The position numbers were made by a program, and so were the translations under genes. Source: an uncultured Bacteroidota bacterium (GTDB taxonomy: Bacteria > Bacteroidota > Bacteroidia > Flavobacteriales_F > PHOS-HE28). From it: a stretch of DNA of 64,000 nucleotides. Of the stretch, positions 28,632 to 30,692 are shown piece after piece; position 1 is the stretch's first letter, and the number at the start of each line of letters is the position of its first letter. A model generated the notes under the pieces. That model was given only the letters and a program-made list of their open reading frames with translations. It searched no databases and was not told where the DNA came from. The stretch covers positions 248,001 through 312,000 of the forward strand of contig CADEDY010000001.1 of assembly GCA_902826215.1 (NCBI GenBank). The letters are read 5' to 3'.

Positions 28632-29051
28632 TCAAGCGCCTTCCTGCACCACCTCGGCCATTTGTCCTTTCAGCCAAGCCAGCACTTCGTGTTCATCATC
28701 CTGCACCCTGATGCGGAAGATCTGTGGGAAGTAGGAGGAATACAGCATGGATACCATTTCGCTCATGTTGTCCTGCACCACAACGGCAAGCGCATACAAG
28801 TTGGCGCTACTGCGCTCCGGTGCGAAGTGGTCCACTATGGTCACCCTCACATCGAAGTCCATATCCTTCGGAATGACAGTGAGCATGCCTCAAGTAGTTC
28901 CATCGGCCGGATCGAAGCGTGAGACCTTGTTCTCTTAGAAGCCATCCAGGTCGATCCGAGCTCCGGTTCGAAAGCGTTGAATGATAAGACCGGGCTCCAC
29001 AAGCGTCTTGGTGGCGATCCTGGTCTCAATGGTTCGAGGAGTTTAGCTCAT
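28632..29051 (-). pseudogene. Broken STAS/SEC14-like paralogue with three in-frame stops
   Basis: Read from the ATG at 29051, this frame is colinear with the intact gene at 28043-28465 without any gap, but carries stops at codon 3 (TAA, 29043-29045), codon 39 (TAA, 28935-28937) and codon 54 (TGA, 28890-28892). Matching pieces include RTI near the start, TLV, then IVDH, ALAVVV, YFPQIFRIRV and WLKG against NVDH, AMAVVV, YYPQAFQVRV and WLNE. The intact copy has 140 codons and this one 139. An 84-residue reading frame starting at 28886 is only the tail after the last stop. A TACCTTGC box 6 nt before the ATG supports 29051 as the former start. Confidence 0.75.
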
Positions 29052-29156
29052 GAGCCAGCAAGGTACGAATGGGGTACCAGAGCATTTCCTCGGGCTTCAA
29101 CACGACGTCATGGAATACATCCAGCACGTGATGGGGTGAAGGGTGGTGGCGGGAGA

Positions 29157-29164: not shown

Positions 29165-29246
29165 GCCGACCAAGGCTTTGGAAGTTGCAGAACCCATCCG
29201 GGATCAGCGACGTAGAAGCACGTCCTTCACTGCACAGCGCACCGGC

Positions 29247-30692
29247 ATGCTCTTCAATTCCATCGATTTCGCGGTCTTCCTGCCAGTGGTCTTCCTGCTG
29301 TATTGGTTCGTGTTCCGAGGGCTTCGCATCCAGAATGCGTTGCTCCTTGTGGCCAGTATGGTGTTCTACGGTTGGTGGGATTGGCGGTACCTGATCCTCG
29401 TTTTCTTCAGCGCCGGGATCGACTATGTTATGGCCTCGCAGTTGGAGCGCACCGATGATCCACGGACACGGAACGGCCTGCTACTGATCAGTCTGGTCAC
29501 CAATTTGGGTCTGCTGGGCTTCTTCAAGTACACCGATTTCTTCATCACCAGCTTCAACGATGCCTTTACCTTCTTCGGTCATCCTTTGGGACTGGACACA
29601 CTGCGGATCGTTCTGCCTGTTGGTATCTCGTTCTACACCTTCCAGAGCTTGAGCTATACGATCGATGTGTACCGGCGAGAATTGAAGGCCTCGCAGGACC
29701 CCGTTGAGTTCTGCGCCTTCGTACTGTTCTTTCCGCAGTTGGTCGCAGGTCCTATCGAGCGCGCTGCGAAGTTGCTTCCCCAGTTCACACAACCCCGCGT
29801 GTTCGACATAGCCGTGGCGCGGAACGGTGTTCGTCAGATCCTTTGGGGCTTGTTCAAGAAGATCGTCATTGCGGACAATTGCTCACAGATCGTGAACCAG
29901 CTCTACGCAGACCCGAGTGCGCATTCGGGCAGTACCATGGCCTTGGCCACCGTCCTTTTCGCATTCCAGATCTATGGTGATTTCAGTGGGTATAGCGACA
30001 TCGCCATCGGTACAGCACGACTCTTCGGCTTCGACCTCATGCGCAACTTCGCCTACCCGTATTTCTCTCGCGACATCGCCGAGTTCTGGCGTCGATGGCA
30101 CATCAGCCTCAGCACGTGGTTCCGCGACTACGTGTACATCCCCATGGGGGGGAATCGGGGCACCAAGGCGTTCGTGGTGCGCAACACCATGATCCTCTTT
30201 CTGGTGAGCGGTTTCTGGCACGGAGCCAATTGGACCTTCGTTGCATGGGGCGCGATCAACGCCATCTTCTTCTTGCCGTTGGTGCTGCTCAACAAGCACA
30301 AGAGCAAAAGTGGGACCGTGGCTCAAGGTCGGTTGTTCCCATCGCTGCGCGAATTGTGGATGATGGGGTCGACCTTCTTGCTCGCCTGTTCTGCGTGGGT
30401 GTTCTTCCGTGCGCAGAGCATCGAGCAGGCCTTCGAGGTGTTCGGTCGCATCGGTTCAGCGTCCTTGTTCACCTTACCCGAGATCACCAGTTCGCTCACG
30501 ATGGGGATCTCGATCCTCGGCATCAGCGTCATGGTGATCCTGGAATGGATCAACCGCGAACGCCAGTACGGTTTGGAGATGGATGGGCGTGCTGTGCGAC
30601 CGGTGCGCTATGCGCTCTACTATACCCTGATCGGGATCATCATCGTTTGTGCACCACTTGGTGGCGGCGAGTTCATCTACTTCCAGTTCTGA
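29247..30692 (+). CDS. MBOAT family O-acyltransferase (AlgI-like)
   Basis: A 481-residue multi-pass membrane protein, starting at the ATG at 29247 where the first hydrophobic segment begins (MLFNSIDFAVFLPVVFLLYWF). The MBOAT core includes SYTIDVYRR, FPQLVAGPIERA, RRWHISLSTWFRDYVYIPMGG with NRG following, and the catalytic-histidine block SGFWHGANWTFVAWG. AlgI-type proteins pass acetyl groups across the inner membrane to an exported polysaccharide. The next gene encodes an SGNH-type partner 3 nt downstream, giving a two-gene acylation unit. The polymer that is acylated cannot be named. Confidence 0.92.
   Translation: MLFNSIDFAVFLPVVFLLYWFVFRGLRIQNALLLVASMVFYGWWDWRYLILVFFSAGIDYVMASQLERTDDPRTRNGLLLISLVTNLGLLGFFKYTDFFITSFNDAFTFFGHPLGLDTLRIVLPVGISFYTFQSLSYTIDVYRRELKASQDPVEFCAFVLFFPQLVAGPIERAAKLLPQFTQPRVFDIAVARNGVRQILWGLFKKIVIADNCSQIVNQLYADPSAHSGSTMALATVLFAFQIYGDFSGYSDIAIGTARLFGFDLMRNFAYPYFSRDIAEFWRRWHISLSTWFRDYVYIPMGGNRGTKAFVVRNTMILFLVSGFWHGANWTFVAWGAINAIFFLPLVLLNKHKSKSGTVAQGRLFPSLRELWMMGSTFLLACSAWVFFRAQSIEQAFEVFGRIGSASLFTLPEITSSLTMGISILGISVMVILEWINRERQYGLEMDGRAVRPVRYALYYTLIGIIIVCAPLGGGEFIYFQF

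Follow-up and report, generated by a model that had tools for sequence, protein, structure and literature searches.

A probable pseudogene of the DUF7793 family carrying three nonsense codons and no indel in an uncultured Flavobacteriales lineage

In this study, we describe a disrupted gene in a window of 64,000 nucleotides (the whole stretch of DNA that was analysed). The frame, here called PSI, contains three in-frame stops and lies close to an intact paralogue, P1. With a probability of about 0.9, PSI is an ordinary pseudogene, that is, an ancient gene whose constraint was lost in the lineage of the window and which was inactivated by nonsense substitutions. The evidence consists of homology, synteny, intact orthologues, the stops themselves and accelerated replacement in both halves of the frame.

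Results

Structure of the disrupted frame

PSI is read on the minus strand from the ATG at 29051 down to 28632 and comprises 139 codons and a stop (Table 1). Its alignment with P1 is gap-free, with 40 of 133 residues identical (30%) and an E value of 8e-21, far above chance. The original prediction had described this colinearity, the lengths of both frames, the stops TAA, TAA and TGA at codons 3, 39 and 54, and an 84-residue frame that is just the tail of the gene; all of this agrees with our data, the short frame being present from Met56 as a remnant with accelerated replacement. When PSI is mapped onto the structure that AlphaFold2 predicts for the intact orthologue of G003, the codon 3 stop falls before strand 1. 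All three stops lie within the first 40% of the gene, for which even placement gives a chance of about 6% by our own arithmetic.

Table 1. Coordinates of PSI, its stops and the neighbouring features in the window
Feature	Position	Strand	Basis
P1, intact paralogue, DUF7793, 140 aa	28043..28465	-	Pfam match; orthologues adjoin the PSI orthologue in G003, G004, G007 and G008
PSI, probable inactivated DUF7793/SpoIIAA-like gene, 139 codons, no net indel	28632..29051	-	three in-frame stops; intact, colinear orthologues in nine congeners
TAA, codon 3 of PSI	29043..29045	-	orthologous codons are CAC, TTC or GAC
TAA, codon 39 of PSI, within predicted helix 1	28935..28937	-	GCN (Ala) in 9/9 close orthologues
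TGA, codon 54 of PSI, at start of predicted strand 4	28890..28892	-	TGC (Cys) in 9/9 close orthologues
84-aa open frame from ancestral Met56, remnant tail, unsupported as gene	28632..28886	-	without predicted strands 1-3 and helix 1; accelerated replacement
Remnant of -7-box-like promoter element TACCTTGC	29058..29065	-	TAnCTTTC in 8/9 close orthologues
Divergent MBOAT O-acyltransferase gene, syntenic anchor, probably with its true start closer to 29250	29178..30692	+	synteny

Intact orthologues and the age of the pair

Our search of the genus covered 45 genomes, the window's own among them. Nine other genomes contain a close, colinear, full-length orthologue of PSI with an intact reading frame (approximately 54-68% identity), and in eight of these its neighbour is, just as in the window, the divergent MBOAT gene. 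The gene disrupted here is thus intact at the matching locus in relatives, the finding that had been named beforehand as confirming decay of the second copy. At the locus of the ninth, G003 (L041 5473-6910), an unrelated 435-aa frame occupies the MBOAT position and MBOAT is absent, while the next gene is conserved.

An orthologue of P1 directly follows that of PSI in four of the nine congeners and is missing at the locus in the other five; the PSI lineage is the more widespread of the two there. Those five genomes (G009, G041, G005, G006 and G029; L045-L049) have a second, more distant MBOAT gene (approximately 41% identity) near the first.

A recent tandem duplication had been proposed as the origin of the pair. 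PSI and P1 are, however, not each other's closest relatives. PSI is far closer to its orthologues than to P1, and within the window's own genome P1 shares 35% identity with a copy on contig 18, more than the 30% it shares with PSI. In the tree, P1 and its orthologues form their own five-species clade with 100/100 support, outside which PSI is placed. The low identity of the pair, the well-separated DUF7793 clades and the commoner occurrence of the PSI lineage at the locus exclude a recent duplication, and P1 is a paralogue of older origin, of which PSI is no fresh copy.

Family, fold and upstream elements

P1 scores 35.3 bits against Pfam PF25056 (DUF7793), above the curated cut-off of 26. PSI, with its stops masked, aligns along the C-terminal part of the same profile and differs in being broken by three stops and in remaining below the cut-off, at 19.6 bits; its probable membership of DUF7793 therefore rests on orthology to intact relatives. 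Against the SpoIIAA-like Pfam profile P1 reached 14.8 bits, under the cut-off of 25 bits. The AlphaFold2 prediction for the intact orthologue of G003 (pLDDT 90) has its best structural match in the SpoIIAA-like PDB 2q3l (E 5e-4; PMC2954212) and matches STAS proteins (PDB 4xs5) more weakly; at 12% identity and a TM-score of approximately 0.5 this is a fold-level resemblance only. It backs the STAS/SEC14-like label given to the fold earlier. Related Shewanella proteins have been proposed to be carriers of small nonpolar molecules (PMC2954212). Judged by the fold alone, the ancestor of PSI would likeliest have acted in the cytosol as a small protein of SpoIIAA/STAS/CRAL-TRIO type, either as a regulator or as a carrier. 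A literature search on DUF7793 returned no publication.

In the close orthologues that keep it (Table 1), the distance from the first base of the -7-box-like element to the start codon downstream is 14-16 bases. Across the family, 19 of 40 members have a TAnCTT(T) element resembling the Bacteroidetes -7 box whose first base lies 12-16 bases ahead of the start codon, as against 0.6 expected from shuffles. This spacing suggests that transcripts of the DUF7793 family may be leaderless or nearly so. Further upstream of PSI, at 29095-29117 on the minus strand, lies a block ATTCCATG...TGTTGA that also occurs upstream of the orthologues in G004, G007 and G008.

Loss of constraint

Among the intact orthologues, those of G003, G004 and G008 share 75-81% identity with one another, whereas PSI shares 62-68% with these three. 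In the neighbouring long gene the window and G003 are about equidistant from G004 and G008 (68.6-70.1%). The branch of PSI measures 0.46, compared with 0.05-0.16 for close orthologues. In a relative-rate test with G004 as outgroup, 22 replacements were unique to PSI and two to G003 (p 4e-5). Broken down by codon position, changes unique to PSI and to G003 numbered 13:7, 19:3 and 25:30 at positions 1, 2 and 3, so that the excess in PSI lies at replacement sites. More distant outgroups gave the same direction for the whole gene more weakly (p 0.007-0.15).

The excess extends into the part of PSI behind the last stop, where unique replacements of PSI and G003 stand at 13:1 (outgroup G004) and 12:1 (outgroup G008), with p of approximately 0.002-0.003 by our own binomial arithmetic. 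Otherwise invariant residues are changed in both halves, for example E24I, L48P, V55G, D83A, F105S and R124L. The C-terminal contrast between PSI and G003 is seen only in the outgroup-polarised test; leave-one-out counts of changed invariant residues in this part (7/48 for PSI, 5/53 for G003) do not separate the two. A plain two-ratio codon model was uninformative as to branch omega, since third positions are saturated. Loss of purifying selection is thus indicated by the relative-rate tests, and a codon mixture model agrees, though not cleanly.

Expected number of indels

This mixture model, in which a constrained phase is followed by a neutral one, estimated approximately 48 neutral substitutions since the loss when the stops were counted (profile approximately 20-80), and 36 when they were treated as missing. 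Because intact controls also gave significant but false neutral stretches (21 substitutions in G004, 16 in G006), only the order of magnitude of the neutral time is used. Published indel rates amount to 1.8-11.9% of the substitution rate (PMC4978911). For 36-48 substitutions we calculate approximately 0.6-6 expected indels and a chance of zero that runs from approximately 50% to under 1%, a chance to be read in the light of PSI having been picked for its stops without indels. When 40 substitutions were simulated, the mean number of stops was about one, and 6-10% of runs ended with at least three. The lack of indels is therefore unremarkable to at most mildly unusual, and we infer that too little time has passed since the loss for indels to have arisen.

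A second stop-bearing copy

In G010, contig 53 (97337-97696; L060 approximately 1835-2197) contains a copy of the family with four stops in 120 codons, which aligns gap-free to intact relatives at 36-38% identity. There was no MBOAT gene beside it in the 4 kb examined, and the copy looks like a decay independent of PSI. It is the only true second dead copy among the family members flagged for internal stops, G015:C13 being left aside; nearly all others were alignments overrunning the true stop. Short matches in G044, G005 and G016 proved to be contig ends or full-length genes.

Discussion

The original prediction saw in the missing indels a hint that PSI still serves a purpose, as RNA or through an internal start. 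The expected number of indels and the equal replacement excess after the last stop speak against such a hint. A shortened 84-aa protein made from Met56 and kept by selection has in its favour that the tail is open, that every stop lies upstream of Met56 and that this methionine, present in all nine close orthologues, is ancestral. Such a product would, however, start inside strand 4 and lack the preceding strands and helix 1, and no congener was seen to have the short form as an intact gene. Furthermore, the tail carries the replacement excess described above, with invariant D83, F105 and R124 among the residues hit. With both halves affected in this way, the sequence does not support the internal start, and we regard it as very unlikely.

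That the stops are assembly or sequencing errors in an intact gene is a thought raised by the draft state of the genome (51 contigs). Errors would have to account for three separate stops, two of them at least two base changes away from the orthologous codons, and for approximately 20 excess replacements unaccompanied by indels, in a region where the adjacent genes have open frames and give normal alignments; we hold this to be highly improbable. Hardly credible is the persistence of the locus for an RNA with regulatory or antisense function, or for a frame used on the opposite strand. It would fit the lack of indels, the 214-aa opposite-strand frame overlapping PSI and the upstream block common to relatives. 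An Rfam scan found no family match at E up to 1, however; the opposite-strand frame that faces the codons is poor in stops in most orthologues too, for which G+C-rich codon use can suffice; and the block sits outside PSI and precedes intact copies. Since length-kept, stop-bearing copies occur both at the PSI locus and on contig 53 of G010, an unusually low indel rate of the genus, or a retained role of the DNA or RNA in which substitutions are tolerated and changes in length are not, is conceivable, and we give it very little weight.

Ordinary decay thus remains our reading of PSI. Bacterial nonsense pseudogenes ordinarily have intact orthologues in relatives, an excess of replacements and several stops. 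PSI is alike in all three respects and differs by having no indel so far. An ancient small gene of SpoIIAA/STAS fold, intact beside MBOAT in related species, would have been released from selective constraint in the lineage of the window; nonsense substitutions would then have inactivated it, with indels yet to come. PSI probably gives no functional product. Of the earlier interpretation, decay stands, given the intact orthologues in nine congeners, and the recent duplication and the retained purpose fall away.

PSI is a clean example of a short tail frame that can be mistaken for a gene though the ancestral gene is dead, and together with P1 it exemplifies how old neighbouring relatives mimic a fresh duplication. 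In all else it is a routine case of a gene being lost by an uncultured lineage of Flavobacteriales.
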